Positions 1 to 60,765 of a stretch of DNA of 64,000 nt are shown here, in pieces. The stretch's first letter is position 1; the number at the start of each line of letters is the position of its first letter. Origin of the DNA: Chryseobacterium gleum (lineage in GTDB: Bacteria > Bacteroidota > Bacteroidia > Flavobacteriales_D > Crocinitomicaceae); assembly GCA_945897805.1 (NCBI GenBank), contig CAMDFX010000012.1, forward strand, positions 1-64,000, written 5' to 3'. The notes beneath the pieces are model-generated. The model saw only the letters and a program-made list of their open reading frames with translations, did not search any database and was not told the DNA's origin. A program made the position numbers and the translations under genes.

Positions 1-1713
1 ACAGGTCCTTTCTGGGGTTGGGATCCAAATGCAGGTCCAATCGCAACGAACAATGGGAATGGAACATTTACATTTACATTTGCTCCAGCTCCAACAGCGA
101 ACATGGAATATTTGTTGATTGTTGACGGTGTTCAAGAAAATTTGATTTCTGCGATGGTAAATGGCGGAACTTGTGCACCAATTACAGATTATACAAATTA
201 CGCAAATCGTATTTGGACTACAACAGATGCTTTAACTGTTTCTAATACTTACGGTCAATGTGGCGCTTGTTCAACTGTAAACCCTAATCAAATGGATTTA
301 CCTGTTACTTTCGAAGGTTCAGTTATTGAATACGGAGTAATTGGATTTGAAGGTGCTGAGGCTTCAACGATTGAAGTTGATCCAACAAATGCCGCAAATA
401 CTGTTGTAAAAGTGATTAAAGTAAACACAGCACAGCCATGGGCAGGAACAACAGTTACAGCTCCTGAAGAATTAGGTTTTGCTTCTCCGATTCCTTTCAC
501 TTCTGCTCAAACTCAAATGTCTGTGCGTGTTTGGTCTCCAGATGCAGGAATTGTTGTCAGACTTAAAGTTGAAAAACACAACAATCCAACGATTTCAGTT
601 GAAACAGATGCAATTTCAACAGTTGCAAATGGCTGGGAAACATTGGTGTTTGATTTTGCAAACGAAGGAACGGGAACAGCGGCTTTGAACTTGGCAAATA
701 CGTATGACAAAGCTTCAATCTTCTTTAATTATGGGGTGAACGGCGCAACAGCTGGTGAAAAAACATACTATTTTGATGACATTCAAATGTACAATCCAAC
801 AAGTGGAAATGACTTGTTAATCACAGTTGATGTTTGTTCTACAACAGCAAACGAAGTTAGAATGACAGGGCCTTTCTGGAATTGGGATCCAACAGCAGGA
901 CCATTCGCTGTGGACAATGGCAACGGAACATGGACTTTCACTTTTTCTCCAGCACCAACGGCTGATATGGAATATTTAGTGATTGTTGATAGTGTTCAAG
1001 AAAACTTAATTGCTGACATGCAAAACGGTGGAACTTGTGCGCCAGTAACTGACTATTTTGCTTATGCAAACAGAAAATGGATAGTAGGTTCTGGAGATGT
1101 GAATATCGCTTACGACCGTTGTGTTTCTTGTTCTTATCCTGATTTAATTATCACTACAGAAATCTGTGATAGTGCAAACAGTGTGAATCTGACAGGTCCA
1201 ATTTGGGGATGGAATCCAGCTTTTGGTCCTCAAGCGGTTAATAATGGAAATGGAACTTGGACATTTACAATTTCTCCAGCACCAAACGATACCTTGGAAT
1301 ATTTGTTAGTTAAAAATGGCGTTGTAGAGAACTTGATTCAAGAAATGGTAAACGGTGGCGGATGTGCTCCAATTACTGATTATGCAACTTACGCAAATCG
1401 TAGATGGTTGCTTGGTCAAGGTGATGTAGCCAACACTTATGGAAAATGTGGTTCTTGTATCGTTGGAATCGATGAAACTTCTTTTGAAAACTTGATGGTT
1501 TATCCAAATCCTTCTGCTGCAATCTTTACAGTTTCAAACAATACACAAATTGAAAAACTTACTTTGTATTCAATCATCGGAGAAAAAGTACTTGAAAAAT
1601 CAATCCAATCAACAACATCAACGTTGGATTTATCTGCAATGGCTGCTGGAATCTACCACTTGAATATTCAAGTTGGTGGCGAAACGAAAACCATTCAGTT
1701 GATTAAAGAATAA
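1..1713 (+). CDS. T9SS-exported multi-domain carbohydrate-binding protein (5' end missing)
   Basis: The frame is open from base 1, so the N-terminus lies outside the window. In order it holds the tail of a roughly 107-residue repeat (to nt ~273), a beta-sandwich CBM-like domain (nt ~290-810), two full copies of the repeat (nt ~815-1137 and ~1138-1460) and a T9SS type A sorting domain (nt ~1480-1713, beginning around VYPNPS). Repeat copies share TGPxWxWxP, GNGTWTFT, EYL, VQENLI, a GGTCAP-type cysteine motif and a closing CxxC. From memory, such repeats and the middle CBM-like domain recur in flavobacterial GH16 laminarinases, so the missing part may be catalytic; that is inference. The GH16 gene follows after a terminator, which supports a role in beta-glucan binding outside the cell. 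Confidence 0.8.
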   Translation, partial: TGPFWGWDPNAGPIATNNGNGTFTFTFAPAPTANMEYLLIVDGVQENLISAMVNGGTCAPITDYTNYANRIWTTTDALTVSNTYGQCGACSTVNPNQMDLPVTFEGSVIEYGVIGFEGAEASTIEVDPTNAANTVVKVIKVNTAQPWAGTTVTAPEELGFASPIPFTSAQTQMSVRVWSPDAGIVVRLKVEKHNNPTISVETDAISTVANGWETLVFDFANEGTGTAALNLANTYDKASIFFNYGVNGATAGEKTYYFDDIQMYNPTSGNDLLITVDVCSTTANEVRMTGPFWNWDPTAGPFAVDNGNGTWTFTFSPAPTADMEYLVIVDSVQENLIADMQNGGTCAPVTDYFAYANRKWIVGSGDVNIAYDRCVSCSYPDLIITTEICDSANSVNLTGPIWGWNPAFGPQAVNNGNGTWTFTISPAPNDTLEYLLVKNGVVENLIQEMVNGGGCAPITDYATYANRRWLLGQGDVANTYGKCGSCIVGIDETSFENLMVYPNPSAAIFTVSNNTQIEKLTLYSIIGEKVLEKSIQSTTSTLDLSAMAAGIYHLNIQVGGETKTIQLIKE

Positions 1714-1734
1714 TTTATTTAATTAAATTTACAA

Positions 1735-1764
1735 AGAAAGGGAGGTATTTATATCTCCCTTTTT
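1735..1764 (+). terminator. Rho-independent terminator
   Basis: A hairpin with arms GGGAGGT and ATCTCCC (one G-T pair) is followed by five T. It separates the preceding T9SS protein from the GH16 gene, 13 nt before the next ATG. Confidence 0.75.
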
Positions 1765-1777
1765 AATACAACAAACA

Positions 1778-2794
1778 ATGAAAAAAATTATCTTATTTGC
1801 AGCATTTCTAATTCTTCATTCATTTTCTCATGCGCAATGGGTGATGGTGTGGTCAGACGAATTTGAATCAACAACCTTAGACAATTCCAAATGGAATTTT
1901 GATATTGGAGGCAATGGTTGGGGAAACAACGAAGCGCAATATTACACCAATAGTGCAACGAATTTGAGTATCGCTGGAGGAGAAGTAACAATCACTGCGC
2001 GAGAAGAACAATTTGGAACGAATGACTACACCTCTTCAAAAATTTTATCGAAAGGATTATTTGATGTAAAATTTGGAAAAATTGAAGCAAGAATCAAATG
2101 TCCGATGGGAAAAGGTATTTGGCCGGCTTTCTGGATGCTTGGTACAAATATCTCTGAAGTTTCCTGGCCTGCTTGTGGCGAAATTGATGTAATGGAGCAC
2201 ATCAACAACGACACAAAAATCAATGGAACTGCGCATTGGGACAATGTTGGACACATTTATATGGGTGGAATTTCAACTTTAGATGCGGCACAATATCACA
2301 TTTATGCTATTGAATGGACAGCAACCAACATCAAATGGTTTGCGGATGGCAATTTGTATTATCAGCTAAATATAACAAACGGAATTAACGGAACTAATGA
2401 ATTCCAATTGCCTTTCTATTTAATTTTAAACTTAGCAGTTGGTGGCGATTGGCCAGGTTATCCTGATGCTACAACCGTTTTTCCTGCTGAAATGAAGATT
2501 GATTACGTCCGCGTGTACAAAGATCAATTGGAAGCGACTCTTTCGGAAAACGAATTGGGAAATATCTCAGTAAGTCCAAATCCTACTTCAGGAATATTGA
2601 CCATCGAAAATCCTTCTGAAAGCAAATTGATTGCATACAAAGTTTTTGGTCTTGATGGAAAATTGAAACAAAACGCAACATTGGAAATCAATCAAAAAGA
2701 AATCGATTTACATAAACTTGAAAATGGTGCTTACTTTTTGAAATTAACGAATGAATTGAACCAAGAAAGCACGCAAAAAATTATCATTCAATAA
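1778..2794 (+). CDS. GH16 beta-glucanase (laminarinase type) with T9SS sorting domain
   Basis: Predicted extracellular endo-beta-1,3(4)-glucanase. Residues 1-20 form a signal peptide ending in SHAQ. The GH16 domain spans about 22-250, with the catalytic motif GEIDVMEH placing the nucleophile at Glu135, the helper at Asp137 and the acid/base at Glu140. The E-x-D-x-x-E spacing is the laminarinase/lichenase-type bulged version. Residues ~258-338 are a T9SS type A sorting domain (SPNPTSG near its start), so the enzyme should be secreted or anchored through type IX secretion. The ATG is 13 nt past the upstream terminator. Placement between a carbohydrate-binding protein and a glycosidase operon suggests laminarin or a similar glucan; the exact linkage cannot be read from sequence. 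Confidence 0.92.
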   Translation: MKKIILFAAFLILHSFSHAQWVMVWSDEFESTTLDNSKWNFDIGGNGWGNNEAQYYTNSATNLSIAGGEVTITAREEQFGTNDYTSSKILSKGLFDVKFGKIEARIKCPMGKGIWPAFWMLGTNISEVSWPACGEIDVMEHINNDTKINGTAHWDNVGHIYMGGISTLDAAQYHIYAIEWTATNIKWFADGNLYYQLNITNGINGTNEFQLPFYLILNLAVGGDWPGYPDATTVFPAEMKIDYVRVYKDQLEATLSENELGNISVSPNPTSGILTIENPSESKLIAYKVFGLDGKLKQNATLEINQKEIDLHKLENGAYFLKLTNELNQESTQKIIIQ

Positions 2795-2847
2795 TACTGT
2801 TGTCGGATAAAGAAACAAAAGATTATATGCTACTTTATCCAATAGTA
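2794..2847. other. Stem-loop after the GH16 gene
   Basis: Arms containing GGATAAAG and CTTTATCC, extended by imperfect TACTGTT/AATAGTA pairing, form a long hairpin directly behind the GH16 stop codon. There is no strong T run, so it may be an RNA 3'-end structure rather than a standard terminator. The flanking genes converge here. Confidence 0.45.
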
Positions 2848-2906
2848 GTTTTGTCATGGTTTTTAAACAAAAACAAACGCCAAAACTGAATTTATCTGTT
2901 CTTTTT

Positions 2907-2953
2907 ACGACGGATTTACATCCGTCGTTACAAATATTGCACTCCTACGGAGT
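2907..2953. repeat. Pair of perfect palindromes, probably a dispersed repeat
   Basis: A 9-bp perfect stem (ACGACGGAT, loop TTAC, ATCCGTCGT; 2907-2928) is followed 12 nt later by ACTCC-TAC-GGAGT (2941-2953). Both lie in the 193-bp gap between convergent genes. The GC-rich palindromes stand out from the AT-rich surroundings. I recall similar paired palindromes scattered in other Bacteroidota genomes, but no second copy is in this window. Confidence 0.5.
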
Positions 2954-2987
2954 TATGGGGGAAAGAAACGGATAATTATTAGAGAAA

Positions 2988-4253
2988 TTATTCAATAATC
3001 ATTTTACCCCATACAGAAGGGTTTGTATTAAATCCTTCTTTGTCTGAACTATTCCAGCGTTGTTGCTCGCTTCTGAGTTCATTTGAACCGCTTAAATCAA
3101 CCGCAATTTCAAATCCTAATGTCATTCCTGAAACCAAAGAAGTTTTATACAAATCTTTAAATGGAATGGCCATTTCAACTGAATAACCAGTGCTGTTTCC
3201 TTTGATTTTATAAGCTACTTCTTTCAAAATTTCTTCATTTTTCCAATTCCAAACGTAAGGATTTGCGCCGCAATTAATTCCAATGTGGTTGTCGCTCATC
3301 AATAAAAATTTGCGTTTTTCGCTGCTGTTTTGATTGGTTGAAAAGGCAATTTCAATCGCATCGCCGTTCCACAAATTGTTGCTTGTTTGATAGTTTACTC
3401 TTGGCGTTGAATCAGTGATTTGAAAAGCCATAAACAAACTGTCATTTTTTTGCATCACGGCAAATTTTTGATTTTCTCCGAAATTGGTAAAAGGTTGTTT
3501 CCACTCGCTTAAATCGCCGTCGATTTGAATCTTTTGTTTTGCATTTAATGCAGTCGTTTCTAATTTCAATTTCCCTGAAAAAGGAACAATTTTAATAGCG
3601 TTTATTTCAAATTCTCCTTCTGCAAAAAACTGGATAATCAATTGTTTCATGCTCGACATTTCAAAATCATTTTCCTCAAATGGAAACAGCGAAAATGGAA
3701 TTGTTACTTTGCTCCAAGCTTGCGTGATTTCTTTGTTTTGCACAAAGTTTTTCGAAAATCCTAGCCAAGATTGTTTGCCGGTATAATCCTCAAAACCAAA
3801 CGCCAAAGGGAGATTTTTAATGTTTTTTCCGGTCGAGCGAACTTCCAATTCCAACGCAATGGTATCGTTCAATCCGCCCATGTCTTTTGCCGTCCAAAAA
3901 TCCCAGCCAAAACCTAATCCAACCCAATCGCATCCGTCTAGGTCTTTGTTCCATTTGACATTCAAAAAAGTGTTTTGCGCATCTTCTTTCAATTTGACGT
4001 TAATGCATGAAGTGTTTTTCGAAAACCAAACTTCATCCGACATGTCGTTGCTGAAAATATCCAATTGATTGAATCCACGAATTGAAAATCCACTCGCATC
4101 CGCAGTTTCGTCATACAAGCCGATTCTTTTGAAAACGCGGTAGTCATTTACATCAACTTGATCTAATTTTTGGATTTTTAAAGTATCCTTTTGCGCTGCA
4201 ATTTGAAAGATGGACAAACAAATTGAAGCAATAGAAAGCGCTTTTATCATCAT
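2988..4253 (-). CDS. Secreted protein with CBM9-like C-terminal domain
   Basis: Residues 1-20 are a signal peptide (ends QIAAQ). The first half (~30-230) looks like a beta-sandwich of the galactose-binding type. The second half (~240-421) carries CBM9-like signatures: IDGDLSEW near its start, a WNGDAIEIAF stretch and a final NPSVWGKM. CBM9-like modules bind sugar chain ends or act as surface substrate-binding domains. No catalytic residues were recognised and no sorting domain is present. It is the last gene of the five-gene minus-strand operon; its ATG overlaps the upstream stop by 4 nt (ATGA), so the two are probably translationally coupled. Role inferred: glycan binding in the periplasm or at the surface. 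Confidence 0.7.
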   Translation of the reverse strand: MMIKALSIASICLSIFQIAAQKDTLKIQKLDQVDVNDYRVFKRIGLYDETADASGFSIRGFNQLDIFSNDMSDEVWFSKNTSCINVKLKEDAQNTFLNVKWNKDLDGCDWVGLGFGWDFWTAKDMGGLNDTIALELEVRSTGKNIKNLPLAFGFEDYTGKQSWLGFSKNFVQNKEITQAWSKVTIPFSLFPFEENDFEMSSMKQLIIQFFAEGEFEINAIKIVPFSGKLKLETTALNAKQKIQIDGDLSEWKQPFTNFGENQKFAVMQKNDSLFMAFQITDSTPRVNYQTSNNLWNGDAIEIAFSTNQNSSEKRKFLLMSDNHIGINCGANPYVWNWKNEEILKEVAYKIKGNSTGYSVEMAIPFKDLYKTSLVSGMTLGFEIAVDLSGSNELRSEQQRWNSSDKEGFNTNPSVWGKMIIE

Positions 4254-5257
4254 GGATTCAATGGTCCGTTTTCAGTGAAAATAATGTAATCCAATTTAGA
4301 TTTAGCAAAACCTGAAATTGGATTCGCCAAATGCAACATGTTGATTTGATTTATTTTATCTGAATTGTGTTGTCCGTTTCCATTCGCCGTGGCTGGACTT
4401 CCATTCACCAAACATGGAATGTCGCTGTATTTGATAGAAACCAATTTCCAACCAACCCAATCAATCGTAATTTGGTGAGAATACAAGTCTTCGGTCGCAG
4501 AATCAAAAGTACCGTTGGCATCTTCATCTTCTTGAAATTGGAAAAGCACCAAACTGTTTGTCAATCCAACTTCGCCATAAACCATCACATTGAAATACAA
4601 ATTACTTGGATTGGATGTCAATGGAAACAATGTCGCGCCGCTGTATGCCGTTGCTTTGAAATTGATCAAACCAACCAACCAATCCCAATCCACAGTTCCT
4701 GCCATATTGTAATATGAATTGCCTTCAGGTGCTGTGACATCCGATTTGATTTGGAAATCCATGTCAGCGCCAGCTTGAATAAAAGAAGTCCATCCTGTGT
4801 TGAAACCTGTTTCAAAATCTGTAATCAAAAAACCTGCATTTACTTTTGGATTAATTACTTTCACGTCAGTTATCAACGTATCTGGTAAACCTGGAAATGT
4901 AAGTTCTACTTTACATATTTCAGCGCGAAACATCGGTAAATTCGTCGTTGAACCATTCCACAAAGTTTGACTTGCATCAATAATTTTACTTGTTCCTGTC
5001 ATGATTTTTTCAGCGCCGCTGGTCATTCCGATCACACGCAATTTCCAAGGCGTAGTTTTCGCAATTTCTGCGGTGAAAAATACGGTTTCGGCTGCAGCAA
5101 AATCAACAGAGTCTTGGCTAGATTGCAATCCGTTGATGACACTGAAAGCGCCATTCAAATCCTCTAAAGAAGGCCCGTCAATTTTGTTTATTTCCTCCTT
5201 GCGACAAGAAGTGAACAAACTGAAACCTACTATTGAAATGATAAATATCTTTTTCAT
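4250..5257 (-). CDS. Predicted surface-exposed lipoprotein, glycan-binding candidate
   Basis: A lipoprotein signal peptide ends LFTSC with the lipidated Cys at residue 18. The next residues are Arg-Lys-Glu-Glu, which fits the K-(D/E)2 surface-export signal described for Flavobacteriia lipoproteins. The rest (~335 aa) looks all-beta: an N-terminal immunoglobulin/PKD-like part (~30-140) and a C-terminal beta-sandwich (~145-335) with several Trp residues (TVDWDW, IDWVGW). No SusD-like TPR helices are visible. It sits 4 nt behind the barrel gene and overlaps the CBM9-like gene. By position it could be the surface glycan-binding partner of the barrels, in the way SusE/SusF-type proteins accompany SusC; this is inference. 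Confidence 0.65.
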   Translation of the reverse strand: MKKIFIISIVGFSLFTSCRKEEINKIDGPSLEDLNGAFSVINGLQSSQDSVDFAAAETVFFTAEIAKTTPWKLRVIGMTSGAEKIMTGTSKIIDASQTLWNGSTTNLPMFRAEICKVELTFPGLPDTLITDVKVINPKVNAGFLITDFETGFNTGWTSFIQAGADMDFQIKSDVTAPEGNSYYNMAGTVDWDWLVGLINFKATAYSGATLFPLTSNPSNLYFNVMVYGEVGLTNSLVLFQFQEDEDANGTFDSATEDLYSHQITIDWVGWKLVSIKYSDIPCLVNGSPATANGNGQHNSDKINQINMLHLANPISGFAKSKLDYIIFTENGPLNP

Positions 5258-5261
5258 GCGA

Positions 5262-6959
5262 TTAAAATTTCATAACATAAAACAACATCAATTGTTTGAT
5301 ATTGTATGGGTTTAAAGTATTAAAATTGTTTTTGTTTTGTTCATATAAACAAGCCAAATAAACGTCTTTCGAAAAGTTGAATTTCAAACCTGCAGAAAGA
5401 TTAAGCTCTTGTCCATCTACAATAAACGGACTAAAATTAATGATTTCTCCTTTGTCATTTCTCACAGGCAACAATTCATTTCCAACGCTTGAAAACATAA
5501 ATGCGTTTCCAAGAATAGACAAATCTTTCACAATTTCCAATTCAATACCCACATTTACTGTGGTTGATTTCAAACTGATTTTCTCAAAAGATAAATCACT
5601 TTTGCGTTGTGTATTTTGATAAGCAACACCAATATTGACGATTTGTTTCAATTTCCATTTCAACAAATTTGAAACATCAAAAACCAAGTTTCCTTTCAGG
5701 TAATCAAACGTTTTCAAATTCAATGTTCCTTGTCCTCTGATTTCGCTCAACTTGTAGTAAGTTGCAGTAACGGCTACAATCTTCTTTTTGTCCTCAAAAG
5801 AAAGTGTTGAATAAATTCCTTTTCGATTGAAAGTTGCTGTTCCATAAGGCAACGCGTTGTTGATTGAAGGATTGTATGCCATAATTCCCGTGTTGATTGA
5901 ACTTGTGTACAAAGTTGGATCATTATACAAATCATACATTGACAAAGGCCTCACAATTTGTGCGTTGGTGTAACGATCGTAGTAATTATTTACTTGATTG
6001 TAATCCACTCTTTTGGATTGTGCACCGGCACTTCTAAAATCTGCGCCATTGTCCATGTAACCCAAATTGAATTTGATGCCCAATTTTTTCGCTTCGACAT
6101 TCAATTTTGCATTCATGAAATAATCTGACAATTTTCCTTCATTGTCTTGCGATGAAAAACTGTTAGAAAATCCTGTTTCACCATCAATTCCCAATTTGAT
6201 TTTATCGAATTCCATACCGGATGCAAATGTTCCTGTTGAAACGCTGTTTCTATATGCATCGTTGGATGCTGCAGTTTGTTTCAAATCAAAAACGCTGACA
6301 TGATTTCCTCCAATCGTGAAATATTTACTTTGCACAATGGTGATATTTCCACCGCCGTAAAATCTTTCCAAAATATTGGTCATGTTCGTTGGATTCATTC
6401 TCGTGATAAATCCGTTGAATTTCATTTCTTGAATCACTTTTGGAAATTTCAACGCAAAATCTGCTGCAGCACCTTGTTGACGCCAAGTGTTGTTTTTGTA
6501 GAAAGTTTCATAGTTCACAATGTCTTCCTTGATTTTCAGGGAAGCCGTTGATTGAACCAACATATCTGCATTGTGATTGTAAAAAGTATAAGGCGATAAT
6601 TTGTAGTCAATGTTTCCTATTTGATATCTCAAAACATTGGCCGCAACACCTTTGACATACAATTGTCGAACGTCAAAATTGACGCCACTTCCCCAAAAAC
6701 CACCGAAATCGTTTTTGATACGGATCATTCCTAAAATTTCTGTTGTTGCATTTGGATTGATTTTAAAACCTAAATCAAGCAAGGCATATCCACCGGTCAT
6801 TTTTCTTGCAGTGACTGTATCCTCCGCATCTGTTTTGGAGGTGAAATCAGAATGCGATAACAATGAACGAGCGCCACCGACAAATTGTACTTTTTTTCCT
6901 TCTTGTGCAAAAGCGGAAAAACTGCCTAAAAGGATTGCTATATATAATGTAAATCTCAT
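5262..6959 (-). CDS. Outer-membrane beta-barrel protein of the glucan operon (565 aa)
   Basis: A signal peptide (residues 1-19, ends AFAQ) is followed by a long run of alternating amphipathic beta-strands. The protein closes with a terminal Phe (YVMKF), the usual outer-membrane assembly signal. There is no TonB box, plug domain or carboxypeptidase-like N-terminal domain, so it is not a SusC-type receptor. Gaps to its neighbours are 2 and 4 nt. I cannot place it in a named family. Working idea: a porin-like or enzyme-bearing barrel for glucan fragments, acting with the adjacent 617-aa barrel. Confidence 0.6.
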   Translation of the reverse strand: MRFTLYIAILLGSFSAFAQEGKKVQFVGGARSLLSHSDFTSKTDAEDTVTARKMTGGYALLDLGFKINPNATTEILGMIRIKNDFGGFWGSGVNFDVRQLYVKGVAANVLRYQIGNIDYKLSPYTFYNHNADMLVQSTASLKIKEDIVNYETFYKNNTWRQQGAAADFALKFPKVIQEMKFNGFITRMNPTNMTNILERFYGGGNITIVQSKYFTIGGNHVSVFDLKQTAASNDAYRNSVSTGTFASGMEFDKIKLGIDGETGFSNSFSSQDNEGKLSDYFMNAKLNVEAKKLGIKFNLGYMDNGADFRSAGAQSKRVDYNQVNNYYDRYTNAQIVRPLSMYDLYNDPTLYTSSINTGIMAYNPSINNALPYGTATFNRKGIYSTLSFEDKKKIVAVTATYYKLSEIRGQGTLNLKTFDYLKGNLVFDVSNLLKWKLKQIVNIGVAYQNTQRKSDLSFEKISLKSTTVNVGIELEIVKDLSILGNAFMFSSVGNELLPVRNDKGEIINFSPFIVDGQELNLSAGLKFNFSKDVYLACLYEQNKNNFNTLNPYNIKQLMLFYVMKF

Positions 6960-6961
6960 GA

Positions 6962-8815
6962 TTAAAAGAATATTTTTAGTTCAACAGTAGTTTCTGTGCC
7001 GGCATATTTGTCCAAGGAATAATTGGCGTCGTTGTATTTAAACCAGCGCTGACGGACATACAAACCAGTGTTTTTTGCCAATTGAAAATCCAGTCCGATG
7101 GCATAGCTCAATCCCGTTTGATTTTTGGGAAGATTTGAAACAACATCTAATTGCGTTTGTGTATTGGCAATCATTCTGTCGTATCCAAAATAGTTTGAAA
7201 TCACCAATTTTGGGAATAACAAGTAATAAATCTCCAATTGATTGTTGTAGCTCTGCAAATATGCTTTTTTAGAATATTTTGGAAGCGCTGAAAAATCACT
7301 TTGAACAGTATGAAATCCACCCAAATAAAAGAACATCAATTCACGGTTGAACAATTTGAAGTTGGTTTTATAACTCACTTCCAAAGAATTAAAACCTTTT
7401 GCAGTGATTGAATCTGTGATTTGCAGCGTTTCATAAACGCCTCTGTAGATCTTATTGATATTGTTGTAAGGACCAACATTTGCCGGAAATCCCCATCTCC
7501 AAAATCTTGACATGGCTAAATTATTCGCTGTATGTCCATAAGTGATTTTATCTGAAAGCGCGATAATTTCTTTCGCAGCGCTGTATCCGATGGCAATTTT
7601 TTGGTGTTTGAAAGGCATTTCTAAATTCAAAATCAATCCGCGGCGGTTGTTGGTCAATTGTCCGATTGAAACCAACGAACTAGCAAAAGGAATCAGTGAA
7701 GGTTGACTTCCTGGCGTTTCAGTATTGGTGAGCGCGCTGTTGTATTCCATGATGGAGGAATTCCAGAAAACACCATTGTTGTTGATCACATAAGGACTGA
7801 TTTGGTAGTATCGAACTTCCAAAGGAAAGTAAGTCGCTTTTTTCGAAAATTGAATTTTGATGTCCAACGCTTCGCCCCATTTTGCTTGGTAAGTTGGACT
7901 GTGGTAATTGCCGCTTCCAATTTCACCCAAAAGCGTTATTTCTTTGATTTTGAAATTGAATTCGGAAGTAATCAATTCATAACCCAAAACATTTTTTGTC
8001 AAACTATCAGAATACGTTTTGCTAGAAATGACATTTGCACTGACGAAATTCGATCCAAAATTCTTTTTGATTTTTCCAGCTGTCATCGTGTTTGGCAAAG
8101 GCAAAGCGCCACCGTTAAATTGCGATTTTCCGTGCATGAAAGCAAATGAAAAATCTTTCGGCAATCGCGCACCTTCGAGAATAAATCCTTGAAATGCTTG
8201 TTGTCCCCAACGAACATCTTGATTCAGAGCGCCATCTGTGTAAAAACGTTTGTATCGTTCTAAAACAGAACTTGTATTTGGATCCCAAGGATTTCTTTCA
8301 AACAAACTAAAACGATTGTAGCCAATGTTAGTCGCAAAAGTCATCGGACTCAATGAATACCAATGAATACCGCCTGTTTTTACAGAAAACATTCCGTATT
8401 TTGTAGAATGTGTTCCCGTTAAATTGATTCCTAAATTTAGTCCTTTTACATAATTTTTATCCGAACCTGTCATAGGATTCCAAAGGTAAAAATCGGTGCT
8501 GATCGAAGTGTTTTTCGATGGTCTTAAACCAATATTCAGCATCAATTCAGGAATGTTGCTATCGTCGCCAATAAAAACACGTTTATTGACACCTTTAAAT
8601 TCCGGATATTGCGTTTCCATACTTGAATAGCAAGCCAAAAAGCGGTAATAACCAGAAATAGAAATGTTGTCTAACGCTTTTGGTGCTTTTTTGGGAAATA
8701 GGCCAATTCCTGATTCACTTTTTGCAGTATCAGCGGGAGATTGAGCCATTCCAAAAAAGCTTTGAAAAGCAAAACCGACAATAAGTGAAGCGATATGTAG
8801 CTTTTTATTCTTCAT
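6962..8815 (-). CDS. Outer-membrane beta-barrel protein of the glucan operon (617 aa)
   Basis: Start taken at the ATG at 8815; an in-frame TTG one codon upstream (8818) is less likely. The signal peptide ends FGMAQ (~residue 25). After a short Lys/Pro-rich linker the chain is composed of amphipathic beta-strands with many aromatic residues, ending KIFF with a terminal Phe. No plug or TonB box was seen. The start overlaps the stop of the upstream glycosidase gene by 11 nt, implying coupled translation. Function unknown; with its neighbour it forms a two-barrel pair that is unusual for a polysaccharide locus. A structure prediction would show strand number and pore width. Confidence 0.6.
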   Translation of the reverse strand: MKNKKLHIASLIVGFAFQSFFGMAQSPADTAKSESGIGLFPKKAPKALDNISISGYYRFLACYSSMETQYPEFKGVNKRVFIGDDSNIPELMLNIGLRPSKNTSISTDFYLWNPMTGSDKNYVKGLNLGINLTGTHSTKYGMFSVKTGGIHWYSLSPMTFATNIGYNRFSLFERNPWDPNTSSVLERYKRFYTDGALNQDVRWGQQAFQGFILEGARLPKDFSFAFMHGKSQFNGGALPLPNTMTAGKIKKNFGSNFVSANVISSKTYSDSLTKNVLGYELITSEFNFKIKEITLLGEIGSGNYHSPTYQAKWGEALDIKIQFSKKATYFPLEVRYYQISPYVINNNGVFWNSSIMEYNSALTNTETPGSQPSLIPFASSLVSIGQLTNNRRGLILNLEMPFKHQKIAIGYSAAKEIIALSDKITYGHTANNLAMSRFWRWGFPANVGPYNNINKIYRGVYETLQITDSITAKGFNSLEVSYKTNFKLFNRELMFFYLGGFHTVQSDFSALPKYSKKAYLQSYNNQLEIYYLLFPKLVISNYFGYDRMIANTQTQLDVVSNLPKNQTGLSYAIGLDFQLAKNTGLYVRQRWFKYNDANYSLDKYAGTETTVELKIFF

Positions 8816-10154
8816 CAAATGATTTTAAATCTTGCTTTTTAAATTGAATTGATTTCGCATTTGCGCTGCTGTTTGCATCATATTGAACGTAAAATGGCAC
8901 ATTCAAATAAGCAATTTTTTTGCCATCGCTCACAGTTACAAATAAGCGATATCTGCCTTCAGAATTGGGCGCAATGACTTGAACCGTTGAACTATTTTTT
9001 CCTTTCAGTTTCCCCGGAATCAGCGTTGGTTTGGCTTCAGCATCACCGCCAGATTTCAAGTCGGTACTTTCAGGATACAATTCCCATTCGTAAGATAATT
9101 TGTCTTGGTTCAAATCCTTGGCAAAAACTTCAAAGTCATATTTTTCCTTTGAATTCATAATTACATTTTTGACCAAAATTTGACCATTAAAATGAAGTGA
9201 ATCCACCGAAGGACTTCTATTTTCAGGATATTTTCCAGTGAAATCAAACTCCAATGCGTCGATGGCTTCTGTTGGCATGCCTGCGTCATTAAATAAGCCG
9301 TACCAAGTGTGCGTATATTCCTGTTTTTGTCCCCACAAAAAGGCGAACGAACCGATGCATTGTTTGCCTTGTCCAGCGATACATTTTTGGTATCTGTCTA
9401 AATAAACTTTCGCTTTTTCTGTGCTTGTTTGTTCGATGGAAGTTCCCCATTTGGTTTTGGGAGATTCCCAATGTCCGTTTGGACCCCATTCTGTGATCAT
9501 GTATGGACCTTGATATTGTCCATCTTTCAACACTTTTTCAACGCCCTCAATATCGCCGTAAGTATTGATTCCGTAGATATCAACGGCTGACATTACTTCT
9601 TTGATAAATTTCAATTTTTCAGGATTTGTTCCAGCTGTAACAGTGGAAGTTGGATGATTTGGATCTTCTTCTTTCACCATTTTGGCAATGTCGTTTACCG
9701 CCGCCCAAACTTTCGTGTTGCTGTATTCCAATTCATATTCGTTTCCAACACCCCAAAGCAATAAAGCAGGATGATTTTTGTATTTTCTTACAGCCAAGCG
9801 AAAAGATTCTAATTGCGCAGCGATTTTTTCGGTATTGTCGTAATCAAATCCATGGCGCTCATGTTGCACCCACAAGCCCAACATCACCTTCATATTCATC
9901 TTTTGTGCGGCATCCAAAATTTCTTGCGCGTTTTCAATTCCCCAGGTTCTAATTGTATTTCCTCCACAAGATTTCAAAACATCTAAATGAACCGTTCCAC
10001 CGCCGCCTTTGATGTAATAGTTTTCATTATTGACTTTCAATTGCCATTGTCCAGCATCATCAGCAGCAATCGTTACTTTGTCTACTTGCGCAAAAAGCAT
10101 TGCAGTGAAAGCAACGATAAATTGAAAATAGATGAAAATTAAAATTTTACGCAT
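8805..10154 (-). CDS. Clan GH-A glycoside hydrolase (GH2 TIM-barrel-like)
   Basis: Signal peptide to about residue 23 (MLFAQ). A TIM barrel spans ~30-310. WGVGNEYE supplies the probable acid/base Glu139, and MITEWGP the probable nucleophile Glu222, the layout of retaining clan GH-A enzymes. HERHGFDY (~98-105) is typical of a GH2-like TIM-barrel group that lacks the beta-sandwich domains of classical GH2. A beta-sandwich of the Ig/PKD type follows (~320-430). No sorting domain or lipobox was found, so a periplasmic location is likely. First gene of the five-gene operon and divergent from the sugar permease, it probably trims glucan oligosaccharides; substrate is inferred from the locus only. 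Confidence 0.75.
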   Translation of the reverse strand: MRKILIFIYFQFIVAFTAMLFAQVDKVTIAADDAGQWQLKVNNENYYIKGGGGTVHLDVLKSCGGNTIRTWGIENAQEILDAAQKMNMKVMLGLWVQHERHGFDYDNTEKIAAQLESFRLAVRKYKNHPALLLWGVGNEYELEYSNTKVWAAVNDIAKMVKEEDPNHPTSTVTAGTNPEKLKFIKEVMSAVDIYGINTYGDIEGVEKVLKDGQYQGPYMITEWGPNGHWESPKTKWGTSIEQTSTEKAKVYLDRYQKCIAGQGKQCIGSFAFLWGQKQEYTHTWYGLFNDAGMPTEAIDALEFDFTGKYPENRSPSVDSLHFNGQILVKNVIMNSKEKYDFEVFAKDLNQDKLSYEWELYPESTDLKSGGDAEAKPTLIPGKLKGKNSSTVQVIAPNSEGRYRLFVTVSDGKKIAYLNVPFYVQYDANSSANAKSIQFKKQDLKSFDEE

Positions 10155-10330
10155 TCAATTTTATGTTATGGTAATTTGTACAATATTAAATTTTATTTTT
10201 AAATTGCGCAACAATTTGACAAGAAATGTTAATTTATTTAACAATCGAAGTTGGTAAATGTTTGAATTTCCAATCATTATTGAATTTATTCTAAATATTT
10301 AAAATAGAAGCTAATATAAAAAACAAAACG

Positions 10331-12130
10331 ATGTCACAAACAAATAATCTAAAAACAAATTACGGGGCACTTTCAACCCTTTCAACGGTTTTTTTCTTCT
10401 GGGGATTTATCGCCGCAGGAAATAGTGTATTTATTCCTTTTTGTAAGAATTACTTTCATTTAGATCAATTTCAGAGCCAGTTGATTGATTTTTCATTTTA
10501 CATCGCATATTACACTGGCGCACTGGGAATTTTCATTTTCAGCACCACCGTTTCCAAAGACATTGTCGGCACTTGGGGTTACAAAAAAAGCATTGTTTAC
10601 GGCCTTTTATTTTCCGCATTTGGCGCTGCAATCATGATTGTATCCGTTTATTTCAATGTTTTTGTGGGCATGTTACTCGGACTTTTCATCGTTGCCTTAG
10701 GATTTTCATTGCAGCAAACTTCTGCCAATCCATTTATGATTATGCTCGGAGACGAAGCAACGGGCGGAAACAGAATCAGTTTGGGTGGCGGAATCAATAG
10801 TTTGGGCACAACGATCGGACCGTTGATTGTTGCATTGGCGCTTTTCGGCACAGCTTCCGCGATTAGCGACGACATGATCAGATCGCTTCCTTTGACCAAA
10901 GTCATTATTTTGTATGCTTTCGTGGGGATTTTATTTGTGGCTGTTGCAGCGCTTTTTGGATTTTCAAAAAAAGTTCCTGCAGGAAAAATCACGCCAATTT
11001 TGGAAGACAACACGATGATGATTGAAGGTGTAAAACCCAAAAAAGCGATGTACACTTTATTGGTCATCACAATTTTATTAGCAGCTTGTTTTGCACCAGT
11101 TTTCAATAGTTATAGAACCAAGGAAGCTAAAAATTTGGTGATTTACGAAGGTTGGTTAGACGAAATTCATAAAACCAAAGAACAAATTAATTTTAATCCA
11201 ATTAAACTCAAAGAAATCAACCAAGACGAGGCAGACATTCAATCGAAATTGGAAGCGACTAAAATGCCTTTGGAAAAAAACCGACTTTATTGGCTTTCTG
11301 GCGGATTGTTAGTTGTTGTTGCAGGACTTTTATTTGCCTTTGCAAAAGGAAAAAAGCAAAAAGTAGGATGGGGCGCAATGCAATATCCGCAATTGACTTT
11401 GGGAATGCTGGCGATTTTCGCTTACGTTGGCGTGGAAGTTGCCATCGGAAGTAATTTAGGAGAACTTCTGAAACAAAAAGAATTTGGCGGTTACGGTTCT
11501 TCTGAAATTGCACCATTTATCGCCATGTTTTGGGGAAGTTTGATGATTGGTCGTTGGGCTGGAGCGATCAATGCGTTCAATTTTTCTGAGCAAACCAAAC
11601 AGATTTTGAAAGTGATTGTTCCTTTGGTCGCTTTTGGTTTGGTACTTGGATTCACCAAATTGGCTGGCTACAACATCGACAAATTATACATGTACACAGG
11701 TTGCGTCGTTTTTCAAATAATCGCTTCCTTTTTAACGAAAGACAAACCAGCATTGACTTTAGGCGTTTTTGGATTTTTGGGAATCGCAGCGATTATCGTA
11801 GGAATGATGACCACAGGATTGACCGCAGTTTACGCATTTTTGAGTTGTGGTTTATTTTGTTCCATCATGTGGCCATCGATTTTCTCACTTTCCTTGGCAG
11901 GTTTGGGCGGACATCAATCTCAAGGTTCCTCCTTTTTGGTCATGATGATTTTAGGAGGTGCCATTTTGCCTCCAATTCAAGGAAAATTAGCAGACATTAT
12001 TGGCATTCAATTTTCTTTTGTAATTGGCGCAGTTTGCTTTGCTTATTTGGTGATTTTTGCTTTTTCAGCAAGAAGAATTTTGAAGAAGCAAGGGGTATTG
12101 TTGGATGAGAATGCAATTGCTACGCATTAA
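10331..12130 (+). CDS. FHS-family sugar:H+ symporter (GluP/FucP-like) with central insertion
   Basis: Inner-membrane major facilitator of the fucose-galactose-glucose group: QQTSANPFMIMLG (~128-140) and GGGINSLGTTIGP (~152-164) match the family. Typical members have about 410-440 residues; this one has 599. The excess lies mainly at ~239-345, where one hydrophobic helix (239-258), a charged loop of about 60 residues (259-318) and a second helix (319-337) separate the two six-helix halves. Another hydrophobic stretch near 430-495 may add more. It probably imports glucose or short products of the glycosidase operon, from which it is divergent across a 176-bp AT-rich gap. Its last 4 nt overlap the end of the convergent next gene. 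Confidence 0.85.
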   Translation: MSQTNNLKTNYGALSTLSTVFFFWGFIAAGNSVFIPFCKNYFHLDQFQSQLIDFSFYIAYYTGALGIFIFSTTVSKDIVGTWGYKKSIVYGLLFSAFGAAIMIVSVYFNVFVGMLLGLFIVALGFSLQQTSANPFMIMLGDEATGGNRISLGGGINSLGTTIGPLIVALALFGTASAISDDMIRSLPLTKVIILYAFVGILFVAVAALFGFSKKVPAGKITPILEDNTMMIEGVKPKKAMYTLLVITILLAACFAPVFNSYRTKEAKNLVIYEGWLDEIHKTKEQINFNPIKLKEINQDEADIQSKLEATKMPLEKNRLYWLSGGLLVVVAGLLFAFAKGKKQKVGWGAMQYPQLTLGMLAIFAYVGVEVAIGSNLGELLKQKEFGGYGSSEIAPFIAMFWGSLMIGRWAGAINAFNFSEQTKQILKVIVPLVAFGLVLGFTKLAGYNIDKLYMYTGCVVFQIIASFLTKDKPALTLGVFGFLGIAAIIVGMMTTGLTAVYAFLSCGLFCSIMWPSIFSLSLAGLGGHQSQGSSFLVMMILGGAILPPIQGKLADIIGIQFSFVIGAVCFAYLVIFAFSARRILKKQGVLLDENAIATH

Positions 12131-14622
12131 TTCGCAACCCTCTTCTTCTTCAATGCACTTTTCAAAGATTGATAATCCAACCAGTAAATCACTTTGATGG
12201 AAATGCTATTCAATGCGCCATTTTCAAAGGTTGAATTCAAATTTTGCATGTAACTTTCTTGCACGCGTTTGTCGTTGGTGAAAATCGAATTTTTCCAAAC
12301 TAAATTGATTTCACTTCCTGGTTTGAAAACCCAACGGTAAACCATGTCTATCGTAAATGCATTGAAATTGGTGTTGTAAGCTGATTCGCCATTGACGTCT
12401 AATCCGGTGAAAGTGTTTCTCGTCAAATCTCCATTGTCCTGTAAATCATAGAAATAATTATATTTCACGTTGGATCTGTAATGTCTCAAACGGAAAGTAA
12501 AGCCCATTCTTTTGGTAAAGGTGTAGCGCAAATTGATGGTGTTTGTCAAATCTGTTCTATCTCGGTTCCCGAAAAGAATCGCATTGGTCGTTTCTGCAGG
12601 AATTCCGAAAGGCACGGCGAACGCTTGACTTCCTTTGTTAATCGTATGTTCCAATTCGTACACCAAGAAAATTTGATTGCTAATTCTCCAACGGGGCGAA
12701 ACGCTGTAGCCATATTCTTGCCAATTTTTGCTGTCGATGGAATTCCAAGATGTATTTACATCAAGGGCAAATTTTTTCTGGTAATTTGTCGAAATCCAAC
12801 CGCTATAATTTACTGATTTTGGGCGTGTGAAAAATTTTCCCCAAACCCTCGGCTCAAAATAATCGTAATTCGGTGTCACTGATGCATCGATGTTGAAACC
12901 CATGGCATGAAATTTTTTGGTGTTCACAAAGCCGCTGAGCGCGATGACAGTTGAGACGTATACATTTGGCTGATAGAGGCGACTGTAAGTAACATTCATT
13001 TTGGTGGTCAAGCGATTGAGTCGCCAAAAAGGTTTAAAAATTCGATAACTAAATAGTTGATTTAACACGCGACTGTTGTTGTTCATCAAAAATCCCAAAT
13101 CGTTTGGGTCATACGTATCCGATTCTTCGTAGTAACTGGATGTAAAAATGAATTTTCCCGTTTGCTTTCCGAAATTGAATCCGCCTGTGTGGCCAAATTG
13201 CTTTTTGTCTGTATAATATTTCCCTGAAACTGCGCCAAAAGCGCCTGCAAAATAGCGATTGTCTTTGGTGTTAAATTTACTGTCAAATCCTGTAACATTG
13301 GCATCATAAAATGATCCTGAACGTGTTACATTTGTGTTGGTTAAAGTAATACTGCTGTTGTTTTTCAAATTTTGATCTAGCACCAAAACATTGTAATTCG
13401 TAAGTGGCGAAACCAATATTTCTCGCGTTGTGCTGTCTGTCAAATTAAAAGCTTTGGCTGTTTGAGGCGCAGTAATTCCATTGAAAATACCAATTCCAAG
13501 TCCTTTTTTGGTGCGGCCAGAAATTTTCGAAGCGTTGTATAATTGAGAAGATTGAGGTACTTCACTCAAGATTTCATTGTCGTTCAACAAAGTCGTCAAA
13601 ACGCTATTGGGCGCTTGAATTCCAATTCTTCGGCTGTAAAATAATCCCGATTTATTGAACAATTCTGTTCCTTCGGTAAAAAACTGTCTGTTTTCGTTGA
13701 ATTGAATTTCAAATGGACTCAAATTCAGCACTTGGTTGTCAAAAACCACTTGACCAAAATCAGGCACCAAAGTCATATCCAAAGTAAAAGCTTCGTTCAA
13801 TCCCAATTTGATGTCCATGCCGCCATTGAGCTGTTGCGAAACATTTCTCATATTCGGATCATTGAACGGATAATGACTTACATAACCAGAAAGATAAGGA
13901 ATCAACGCCAATCTCAAAGGCGGAGCAATTCCTTCCAGGCCTTTCAATTGACCACACTGTGCCATGTAATTTTCGAAATCAGGTTTCACAGGACTCCAAG
14001 AAGAAACTTCGCGGTTTCGGCTGATGTAACGTTCAAAGTTTACGCCCCAATTTTGTAAGGCAGTTTTCGGAAAACGAATGGCAGAGTAGGGAATTTTGAT
14101 TTCCAATTGCCAACCATTTTCAGTGTGTAGCACTTCGCTTTGCCAAACCATATTCAATTCCTGACTTTCTTCGCCTTGGTAAGTTTTAGCATCGTATTGC
14201 ACACCCATGCTGCTAACGCCAAAAACGAAGCCATTTTGATCGTCGTTGTAAGTGTCGATGAAAAGCTTGAAATTGTCAATATTCGCATGAAAATCATCGC
14301 GCAGTGAAAGAATTTTGGAAGCCAAATGCGGCTCGTCGAAACAGGTTACGGCAATATAAAGCGCATTGTCGTCGTAACTTAAACGAACTTCTGTTTTTTG
14401 CGAAGGATTGCTTCCCGGCGCCGGAGTGATTTGCGAAAAATCAGTGGCTACAAATTGTGTTTTCCAGGTGTTTTCGTTAAATTTTCCATCAATTTGAATC
14501 CTTTCAGCTGTTTTAGAAATAGAAATTTCCTTTTGTGAAAAAGCAAAATCAGCGGCAGAAAAAATTCCTAAGCCAATCAAAATGAAACGATTTAAAGCAA
14601 GTATGAATTGGAGTTTTTTCAC
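12127..14622 (-). CDS. CBM9-like / DUF5916 outer-membrane barrel protein
   Basis: Starts with GTG (14622). The N-terminus is basic-hydrophobic and ends in a cleavage-like AFSQ (~residue 30). Residues ~35-230 form a CBM9-like domain (QIDGKFNENTW near its start, then IPYSAIRFP). The remaining ~600 residues are barrel-like and carry a FNENRQFFTEG motif, as in DUF5916 proteins, which usually pair this domain with a barrel. Biochemical role of the family is not established; substrate recognition at the outer membrane is plausible. It converges on the sugar permease with a 4-nt overlap of stop codons. The terminal residues are basic rather than the usual Phe. Confidence 0.75.
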   Translation of the reverse strand: MKKLQFILALNRFILIGLGIFSAADFAFSQKEISISKTAERIQIDGKFNENTWKTQFVATDFSQITPAPGSNPSQKTEVRLSYDDNALYIAVTCFDEPHLASKILSLRDDFHANIDNFKLFIDTYNDDQNGFVFGVSSMGVQYDAKTYQGEESQELNMVWQSEVLHTENGWQLEIKIPYSAIRFPKTALQNWGVNFERYISRNREVSSWSPVKPDFENYMAQCGQLKGLEGIAPPLRLALIPYLSGYVSHYPFNDPNMRNVSQQLNGGMDIKLGLNEAFTLDMTLVPDFGQVVFDNQVLNLSPFEIQFNENRQFFTEGTELFNKSGLFYSRRIGIQAPNSVLTTLLNDNEILSEVPQSSQLYNASKISGRTKKGLGIGIFNGITAPQTAKAFNLTDSTTREILVSPLTNYNVLVLDQNLKNNSSITLTNTNVTRSGSFYDANVTGFDSKFNTKDNRYFAGAFGAVSGKYYTDKKQFGHTGGFNFGKQTGKFIFTSSYYEESDTYDPNDLGFLMNNNSRVLNQLFSYRIFKPFWRLNRLTTKMNVTYSRLYQPNVYVSTVIALSGFVNTKKFHAMGFNIDASVTPNYDYFEPRVWGKFFTRPKSVNYSGWISTNYQKKFALDVNTSWNSIDSKNWQEYGYSVSPRWRISNQIFLVYELEHTINKGSQAFAVPFGIPAETTNAILFGNRDRTDLTNTINLRYTFTKRMGFTFRLRHYRSNVKYNYFYDLQDNGDLTRNTFTGLDVNGESAYNTNFNAFTIDMVYRWVFKPGSEINLVWKNSIFTNDKRVQESYMQNLNSTFENGALNSISIKVIYWLDYQSLKSALKKKRVAN

Positions 14623-14685
14623 AAAATGTTTAAAATAAAGAGCGGTGCAAAAATAGTAAAAAAAGCGTCGCGTCGCTTTGAGGAA

Positions 14686-14774
14686 TTAAGATTTTAGGAG
14701 TCGTTGTTTTGCAACTTTAAGACTAGATTTTTGCTGTTACTTTTAGATTAATTTCAATTTTTACGAAAATCAAA
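14686..14774 (+). repeat. Dispersed repeat, copy A
   Basis: About 89 nt that align with 28886-28975 (opposite strand) at roughly nine of ten positions with one gap. The shared core runs from TTAAGATTTTAGGAG to TTACGAAAATCAAA and contains a small hairpin GTTG-TTTTG-CAAC. It lies in the gap upstream of the DUF5916 gene, beside the decayed BRO-type gene. A shorter diverged copy is at 37506-37556. Confidence 0.7.
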
Positions 14775-14841
14775 AGTCTCAATATCTCATCGAAGCAAAA
14801 GGTTATTAGTTAGCGGGACATTTCTTCAGTTAAAAATGCAA

Positions 14842-15442
14842 TTATTCTTCTAGTTCATTTTTTCCGGTCAAATTTTTAAAATTTTGATTGCTGACAACTT
14901 TAGCCCCAGATTCTTTTTCCAATTCTTTTCTAGCATTTCCAGCCACACTTCCACCAGCTTCGAGATTTAGATTATTGGAACTTTCGATTATTAGATAGTT
15001 GGAATTCGAATAATCTAAAAATCCAATAATCTAAAAATCCAATATTTTCAGTTTTATACGTTGCTCTAATTCTAGCTTGAGCCAGTTCTGGGTTTTCGAT
15101 TTCAGCGATTCTTTCAGCGCCAATTTGTGCGAGCCAATGTTTGAAAGGCTCGGCTTTTGGTGATGGGATGGATTGTATTAATCGCAAAATTTGCTCTGTA
15201 TCAGCCATATCAGTCATTCTCATTTTGCCGTCAATAGCGAGCATTTTCAAACCGTTACAATTTGTAACGGTTTGATTTCCCTCGACAATTAATCTCTTTT
15301 TTAATACCCTCCAATACACTTGAGGATTAGGACTTTCGGTTAAAACCGCAATTACATCAATTATTGAACAATATCATTTTTCTTCTTGCTCCTTGAAAGC
15401 GGAACGCACATTTTTCTCTTCAAATAATTTAATATTACTCAT
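14842..15442 (-). pseudogene. Decayed BRO-N / DinD-like gene
   Basis: Conceptual translation from the ATG at 15442 begins MSNIKLFEEKNVRSAF. It then hits TGA at 15376-15374, where relatives have Trp (EKWYFS-type motif), and continues in the same frame through IDVIAVLTESPNPQVYWR to IQSIPSPKAEPFKHWL and the AERIAEIENPELAQ region. After that the frame is lost. The C-terminal end of the family (GGSVAGNARKELEKESGAKV) reappears in another frame at 14842-14961. The central stretch is missing and replaced by short repeats (14967-15040). The family occurs in prophage-like and accessory regions and binds DNA through the BRO-N domain. One open fragment (14972-15319) could be mistaken for a small gene. 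Confidence 0.8.
14967..15040. repeat. Short direct and inverted repeats inside the pseudogene
   Basis: Two abutting copies of AATAATCTAAAAATCC (15009-15024 and 15025-15040) are preceded by TTAGATTATTGGA (14967-14979), an exact 13-nt inverted match to 15022-15034. This segment sits exactly where the central part of the BRO-type gene is missing. It could be a small palindromic insertion or a repair scar. Confidence 0.6.
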
Positions 15443-15704
15443 GTTATCTTGTTTTTATTAATGATTTATAAAATCATTATCGTTTAATTGTAAAGGCTTT
15501 TTAATAGGTTATCGATCATGAATATACAAAAAATACAGCACAGAAAACCAAACATCTTAAAAATGCTTTTATATCGCGCTGTCATAATGTTTGATGTTTA
15601 CTGCGAGTGAATTTTGGTGCAGGATCCTAGACATTAAAAACCCCAAACTTGTTACCAAAACCAATTCTTGAATTATAGTCTAAGAACTTCCAAAATCTTA
15701 GGAT

Positions 15705-44195: not shown

Positions 44196-44226
44196 CAAAA
44201 GAGATTTAAGGAGAGAAAAATATGTT

Positions 44227-44235
44227 GCAAAGATA
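44227..44235 (-). promoter_or_regulatory. Candidate -7 box for the barrel receptor gene
   Basis: TATCTTTGC on the minus strand (44235-44227), 31 nt before the ATG at 44195. No clear TTG at the expected distance. Confidence 0.5.
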
Positions 44236-44326
44236 AGTTTCTTCCAGAGATGAATTTTTTTAAATGGTTTTTTAACACTCTTTTGATGCTGTTTTTTCAC
44301 TTTTCACTCAGTGTGTTTTTCTGGAA

Positions 44327-60735: not shown

Positions 60736-60765
60736 TAAAGTTAAGCAAAAAACCCTATGAAACAA
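60736..60765 (-). promoter_or_regulatory. Promoter of dprA overlapping the receptor gene
   Basis: Minus strand TTG (60765-60763), 19 nt, TAACTTTA (60743-60736), then GT and the ATG. The -33 box lies inside codons 3-4 of the divergent receptor, and the -7 box ends 2 nt from the dprA ATG (leaderless prediction). Confidence 0.55.

Follow-up and report, generated by a model that had tools for sequence, protein, structure and literature searches.

What carries a glucan across the outer membrane at a Bacteroidota locus that lacks SusC and SusD? The question is raised by five genes lying end to end at positions 2988-10154, minus strand, of a 64,000-nt stretch of contig CAMDFX010000012.1 (assembly GCA_945897805.1, family Crocinitomicaceae), hereafter the window. 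They encode, in order, a GH158 enzyme, two outer-membrane barrels (barrel A and barrel B), a lipoprotein (LIPO), and a protein with a CBM9-like half (CBM9-slot protein). Our findings make it quite likely that this is a beta-1,3-glucan (laminarin-type) utilization locus where a conserved outer-membrane module of four genes, running from barrel A to the CBM9-slot gene, takes the place of SusC/SusD (Table 1).

The original prediction, made from the window sequence, described a tight five-gene operon without SusC/SusD. All five open reading frames (ORFs) were present. GH158 overlaps barrel A by 11 nt if barrel A is taken to start at an ATG shortly after its listed TTG start codon, and by 14 nt if it starts at the TTG itself; the A/B and B/LIPO gaps are 2 and 4 nt, and LIPO overlaps the CBM9-slot gene by 4 nt. 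A promoter and terminator scan of the sequence gave sites no commoner than in shuffled sequence. The same gene order occurs in other genomes, indicating that the operon is not a chance arrangement. The conserved unit, however, is the four genes after the glycosidase and not all five; the predicted conservation of order held, whereas the predicted size of the unit had to be reduced.

Conservation was examined in 56 related stretches that surround barrel A and span 4.6 to 19.9 kb; they come from 53 genomes besides that of the window (G642, G490, and G758 gave two stretches each). Barrel B directly followed barrel A in all 56 testable cases; three of 59 barrel A genes lay at contig ends. The A-B gap was -4 to +11 nt in 50 of the 56. 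All four module genes stood in order at 47 of the 59 barrel A genes. The other 12 comprised three contig ends, four loci cut before the fourth gene, three with another protein in the fourth slot (L098, L101, and L120), one with a split LIPO, and one with a fused LIPO. In L084, barrel A was hidden by an overlapping ORF in this count and was seen in a separate inspection. The module also exists outside the class: barrel A was found in six of 395 genomes of a phylum sample, four of them related to the window at phylum level only. Three of these distant loci (L083, L084, and L085) had all four genes, and the fourth (L082) ended at a contig edge. Pairwise distances of barrel A correlated with those of barrel B (r 0.95), LIPO (0.93; 46 loci), and GH158 (0.93; 30 loci), shared descent being ignored. 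The correlations use loci with a single copy of each; LIPO below 290 aa, barrels below 550 aa, and GH158 below 400 aa were excluded, and 46 loci were retained, 30 of them with one GH158.

The glycosidase predicted as the first gene of the operon matched GH158. In a phmmer search of the PDB, it hit 9oro (named GH158) at E 1.4e-84 and 6pal at E 1.6e-70; the latter has the PDB title 'Uncharacterized protein', and we take it to be the GH158 enzyme of B. uniformis. In both chains, the GNE motif lines up with N138-E139 of the window enzyme and the EWG motif with its E222. N138 and E139 were kept in 46 of 47 relatives and E222 in 45 of 47, the remainder being gaps. For BuGH158, PMC7157763 gives the corresponding residues N136, E137, and E220 as catalytic and reports that their alanine mutants had no activity. 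With the roles given there, the window enzyme shows both similarity to GH158 chains and an aligned Asn-Glu acid/base and Glu nucleophile. Its apparent Sec signal without a lipobox suggests that it is probably periplasmic; the lipobox pattern is crude, matching 35 of 56 LIPO, 24 of 47 CBM9-slot, and two of 47 GH158 proteins.

GH158 and the module occur together. The order is represented by 399 genomes; barrel A was found in 118 of them (E up to 1e-3), GH158 in 115 (E up to 1e-40), and both in 111 (Fisher p 2.6e-84, ignoring shared descent). Of 123 GH158 matches, 104 were on the same contig as barrel A, all at a distance of at most 10.4 kb and 64 within 1 kb; the other 19 shared no contig with it. 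Of 339 genomes, 110 had barrel B, and barrel A was present in 108 of these; in the two exceptions (G519 and G694), barrel B lay right at the start of a contig. Barrel A and GH158 were both absent from G003, a 99% complete genome of the window's genus. In the 56 stretches, whose partner families were named from scanned representatives of neighbour families, GH158 was present in 46, GH3 in 29, and GH16 in 25. Inner-membrane sugar transporters were found in 20 (SSF nine, FHS six, MFS five) and regulators in 25 (Nudix-type 17, Y_Y_Y eight); Entner-Doudoroff genes lay near GH158 in two (L033 and L088). Thus, co-located glycanases and a sugar permease are present in the window itself (GH158, GH16, and FHS), and GH3, transporters, and regulators in its relatives. 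The analysis identified no regulator next to the operon in the window itself.

SusC and SusD were sought in the operon and around the related modules. The Pfam scan of the operon products gave neither family, and no SusD (PF07980). The 56 stretches contain 1784 ORFs, and none of these was matched at E 1e-3 by local profiles for SusC and SusD, for which 12 SusCD pairs from the same order had served as seeds; as a control, the profiles found both proteins in 30 of 30 SusD loci, 18 of which were non-seed. A Pfam scan was directed at the 35 ORFs of at least 620 aa outside the GH3 and Y_Y_Y clusters. It covered all 21 unlabelled ORFs and eight of the 14 labelled ones; the six beyond it were labelled GH16, GH158, or type IX secretion system (T9SS). 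The single SusD match in the genome of the window (3.19 Mb) lies on a different contig. These results agree with the prediction that the operon has no SusD homologue. More generally, none of the three findings named beforehand as fatal to the prediction (a barrel proving to be a known TonB receptor, a SusD homologue in the operon, an unconserved gene order) was made.

GH158 without a barrel A match was found in four genomes. In G519 the contig starts inside barrel B, and in G616 and G786 the contigs end at or just past GH158. The fourth, G728 (locus L162), belongs to the window's family and to another genus. Here a divergent FHS gene and GH158 are followed by SusC (259 nt after GH158), SusD, and a PKD protein with a lipobox-like start, all in the direction of GH158. 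In L034, from the same genus as G728 (g17), the same FHS and GH158 genes are followed by barrel A, barrel B, LIPO, and CBM9. The GH158 and FHS proteins of the two loci are each 61% identical. The upstream side of the G728 locus also resembles that of relatives, with the divergent FHS gene (as in L034), a Nudix regulator (as in 18 of the 56 stretches), and Entner-Doudoroff genes, which L088 and L033 also have. Because the G728 locus is otherwise similar to its relatives, the four-gene unit and SusCD evidently occupy the same place. This swap is a single case and the strongest hint of module function. A phosphoglucose-isomerase-like gene was also seen nearby (L162, contig 50 of G728, 370-16617).

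The barrels were predicted to belong to no nameable family, to end in Phe, and to lack a plug, and all three statements were borne out. Neither barrel matched a Pfam or NCBIfam family at E up to 1, and neither matched a PDB sequence by phmmer. Barrel profiles searched against the PDB gave nothing credible: one returned no row and the other a single antibody chain at E 0.95. The C-terminal Phe was invariant in 16-row alignments of both barrels. AlphaFold2 models from 16-row alignments, with strands counted if they had at least 7 residues, showed 22 strands in each barrel. The predicted local distance difference test (pLDDT) score was 71.9 for barrel A and 81.1 for barrel B. The first strand begins at residue 52 in barrel A and at residue 24 in barrel B, leaving no room for an N-terminal plug. 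Consistent with this, Pfam detected the plug domain PF07715 in neither barrel, and no plug was present in either model. Because the barrels lack a plug, drive by TonB is unlikely, and uptake through them would probably be TonB-independent.

Comparison of the two barrel profiles (hhalign) gave an alignment of 486 columns (probability 95.5, E 1.6e-8). A plug-less SusC was rejected as the identity of the barrels: searches of the profiles against eight SusC sequences found nothing (E 0.068 and 0.016). Since the profiles match each other and neither matches the SusC control, barrels A and B are, by profile comparison, distant paralogues of each other and not recognisably SusC. In Foldseek and VIA-align searches with the models, the scores of porins, AlgE, pilus ushers, and TonB receptors were close together. 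A single structural relative was not obtained: the best Z was 16.0 and 16.7, and many barrels were tied. As no row stood out, no family membership can be drawn from structure.

The lipoprotein was predicted to carry a surface-export signal, and the predicted Cys-Arg-Lys-Glu-Glu was present, the Cys being invariant in 16 of 16 rows. We take this sequence to resemble the lipoprotein surface-export signal of Capnocytophaga and Flavobacterium; by this analogy, LIPO is a candidate surface protein. Its similarity to CBM_11 reached 18.4 bits, under the Pfam cut-off of 27. The last gene was predicted to be CBM9-like and matched CBM9_1 (PF06452) at 57 bits, with a cut-off of 23.4. Its CBM30 score in the window was 18.7 bits, under the cut-off of 27, and was above that cut-off in the relatives L043 and L044. 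The family profile hit PDB chains 2c24, 1wmx, and 7nwn (E 2.5e-4 to 8.9e-4), presumably CBM30 and CBM9 chains. Homology between LIPO and the CBM9-slot protein was considered and rejected (hhalign probability 3.5); the two share one blastp cluster, perhaps owing to a fusion in L121. There, LIPO and the CBM9-slot protein are joined in one ORF of 687 aa (3803-5866), a hint of physical partnership. In one sub-type, the fourth gene of the scanned loci L101 (4556-6256) and L120 (13587-15296) encodes a CBM_4_9 protein with a T9SS tail, replacing the CBM30/CBM9 protein.

The flanking genes of the window are included in Table 1. A GH16 enzyme, an FHS permease, and a DUF5916 protein had been predicted beside the operon, and all three were present. 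DUF5916 was rejected as part of the system, however, because it is not conserved: L029 and L030, two loci from the same genus, do not have it next to the operon. The repeat protein beside GH16 is a possible secreted glucan-binding partner. It was matched in 19 of the 56 stretches, in some perhaps via the sorting tail alone. Among T9SS-secreted neighbours with large repeat-protein matches, all eight that were scanned had CBM48-type repeats. Many repeats of CBM48/CBM20/X25 type were seen in the window protein (103-1713) and in L107, L109, L111, L112, L113, and L115. Elsewhere in the window, three proteins have TonB receptor plug domains (41622-44300, 46485-48725, and 60757-63135).

Table 1. Positions in the window of the five operon genes and of the genes flanking them.
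Feature	Position (nt)	Strand	Remarks
GH158 endo-beta-1,3-glucanase	8805..10154	-	apparent Sec signal, without lipobox
Barrel A (BARA), 618 aa	6962..8818	-	22 predicted strands, without plug, C-terminal Phe
Barrel B (BARB), 565 aa	5262..6959	-	22 predicted strands, without plug, C-terminal Phe
Lipoprotein (LIPO), candidate surface glycan-binding protein	4250..5257	-	Cys-Arg-Lys-Glu-Glu, weak CBM11-like stretch
CBM9-slot protein	2988..4253	-	weak CBM30-like N half, CBM9-like C half
GH16 laminarinase-type enzyme, T9SS sorting tail	1778..2794	+	PF00722 E 3.1e-22, PF18962; convergent neighbour
T9SS-secreted repeat protein beside GH16	103..1713	+	Por_Secre_tail, weak CBM48
FHS-type glucose/galactose permease	10331..12130	+	TIGR01272 gluP E 1.1e-50, below cut-off; divergent neighbour
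DUF5916 protein (CBM9 + DUF5916 domain)	12127-14622		adjoins permease

The idea of glucan uptake put forward in the original prediction is supported by the GH158, GH3, and GH16 partners, by the sugar permeases, and by SusC-SusD in the module's place in G728. We propose the following route. GH16, secreted by the type IX system, would cut the glucan outside the cell, and LIPO at the surface, together with the CBM30/CBM9 protein, would bind it. Chains may then pass through barrel A, barrel B, or both, which would form one complex with LIPO. GH158, plus GH3 where present, would cut the chains in the periplasm, and an FHS, MFS, or SSF permease would carry glucose over the inner membrane. In its full form, the proposal is that an unnamed, TonB-free importer consists of a pair of paralogous plug-less barrels of 22 strands together with a surface lipoprotein and a CBM30/CBM9 protein, and that it does the work of SusC/SusD across much of one Bacteroidota order. 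We regard this full form as having an even chance of being correct.

The module could alternatively be a capture or attachment complex, in which the barrels anchor or display binding proteins and sugars enter by ordinary porins or by a TonB receptor elsewhere. Two of the four module proteins resemble binding proteins. Inter-strand segments are conserved in both barrels (A 429-474, conservation 0.58 versus 0.51 for strands; B 305-378, 0.55 versus 0.43) and might close the pore. SusD, matched in 237 of the 399 genomes of the order, is present elsewhere in 81 of the 118 barrel A genomes. However, the other 37 had no SusD match, and 25 of these have a completeness of 90% or more and contamination no higher than 5%. 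An anchor needs less than two 22-strand barrels, and the presence of SusC-SusD in the module's place in G728 points to a role in uptake. We therefore consider a capture complex unlikely.

TonB could also energise the barrels, via a separate plug protein or short segments folded inside. TonB receptors are 22-strand barrels, and both models, of moderate confidence, have this number of strands. SusC (5t3r_D) was among the better structure rows, its alignments to the two models covering 382 and 387 residues at 3.8-3.9 A, and the conserved inter-strand segments are long. The SusC rows, however, were not above those of unrelated barrels, the SusC profile matched neither barrel, and the plug was missing from both the Pfam results and the models, making TonB-energised barrels very unlikely. 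Export or remodelling of a self-made beta-glucan with trimming by GH158, a role suggested by AlgE (alginate) among the structure matches of both barrels, is barely conceivable in view of the partners (GH3, GH16, sugar permeases, sugar-type regulators, and Entner-Doudoroff genes in two loci), the lack of a glycosyltransferase among scanned representatives of recurring neighbour families, and the SusCD genes in G728.

Several observations weigh against a beta-1,3-glucan locus with a substituted importer. The replacement was seen in one genome, on one 18-kb contig, and SusD occurs elsewhere in most barrel A genomes, as noted above. The distance correlations and Fisher's test ignore shared descent. 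GH158, GH16, and GH3 were all absent from five of the 56 stretches, and seven of the 118 barrel A genomes had no GH158 match. One plugged TonB receptor was found among the 29 scanned large ORFs, in the distant locus L083. The barrel models were derived from 16 sequences (pLDDT 72 and 81), and the long inter-strand segments could close the pore. An aromatic sugar slide of the maltoporin type was sought and rejected: aromatics were not enriched at conserved positions in either barrel. CBM48/CBM20/X25-type repeats are alpha-glucan binders, so the T9SS-secreted neighbours give no support for beta-glucan. Sulfatases were present in 18 of the 56 stretches, and the substrate is therefore not always plain laminarin. 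Finally, SusC/D-type laminarin polysaccharide utilization loci (PULs) are described in Cryomorphaceae and other related families in the accessible part of PMC6794258; two kinds of importer thus coexist in this part of the phylum.

The 18 sulfatase stretches (L093-L106, L116, and L119-L121) represent a second locus type, often with a diverged GH158, and a homologue of the formylglycine-generating enzyme was present in ten of them. L093-L095 showed two modules ~13 kb apart. The enzyme of the sulfatase-type locus L093 still matched GH158. This second type suggests use of the module for more than one glucan.

The proposed importer differs from known outer-membrane systems. SusC-type TonB-dependent transporters resemble it in having an outer-membrane barrel (22 strands in models), a surface-type lipoprotein partner, and adjoining glycanases. 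Unlike the window barrels, they have a plug and a carboxypeptidase-regulatory domain, and no sequence relation was detectable. Chitoporin, ScrY, LamB, OprD/Occ, and AlgE are plug-less and were among the best structure rows; however, identity was only 6-13% in the listed Foldseek rows, and these sugar or substrate porins and AlgE have 16-18 strands, against 22 in the window barrel models. To our knowledge, none of them occurs as a pair of paralogues whose genes accompany those of binding lipoproteins.

The closest published loci share the enzymes and not the barrels. The GH158 SusCD locus in PMC7157763 agrees in the catalytic motifs of GH158, in having GH16 and GH3 as partners, and in its surface glycan-binding proteins and co-located regulator. 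That locus has SusC/SusD uptake and a GH158 with a lipoprotein signal, whereas in the window the two barrels lack a plug and belong to unlisted families, GH158 has no lipobox, and GH16 carries a T9SS tail. A laminarin locus without susCD was reported for W_MB115, a metagenome-assembled genome of the marine flavobacterial NS4 clade (PMC10108472, excerpt). It likewise has a laminarin-type set of carbohydrate-active enzymes (CAZymes) without SusCD; no alternative transporter is named in that excerpt. A Crocinitomicaceae strain was reported to have no PULs (PMC12313589, excerpt). We found no description of the module in the open-licence literature, which was the scope of the search; subscription papers, preprints, and supplements lay outside it.

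These findings bear on how glycan uptake is counted in the phylum. Surveys define loci by susC/susD; for example, the excerpted methods of PMC10108472 term CAZyme groups without susCD 'CAZyme clusters'. Loci with the module would thus be filed as such clusters or missed. Barrel A is present in 118 of the order's 399 genomes, of which 37 lack any SusD match, and travels with a laminarin-type enzyme. The SusCD swap in G728 makes the equivalence of module and SusCD directly testable. If the module does import glucan without TonB, the counting of uptake would change, and the phylum would have a second solution to polysaccharide import.

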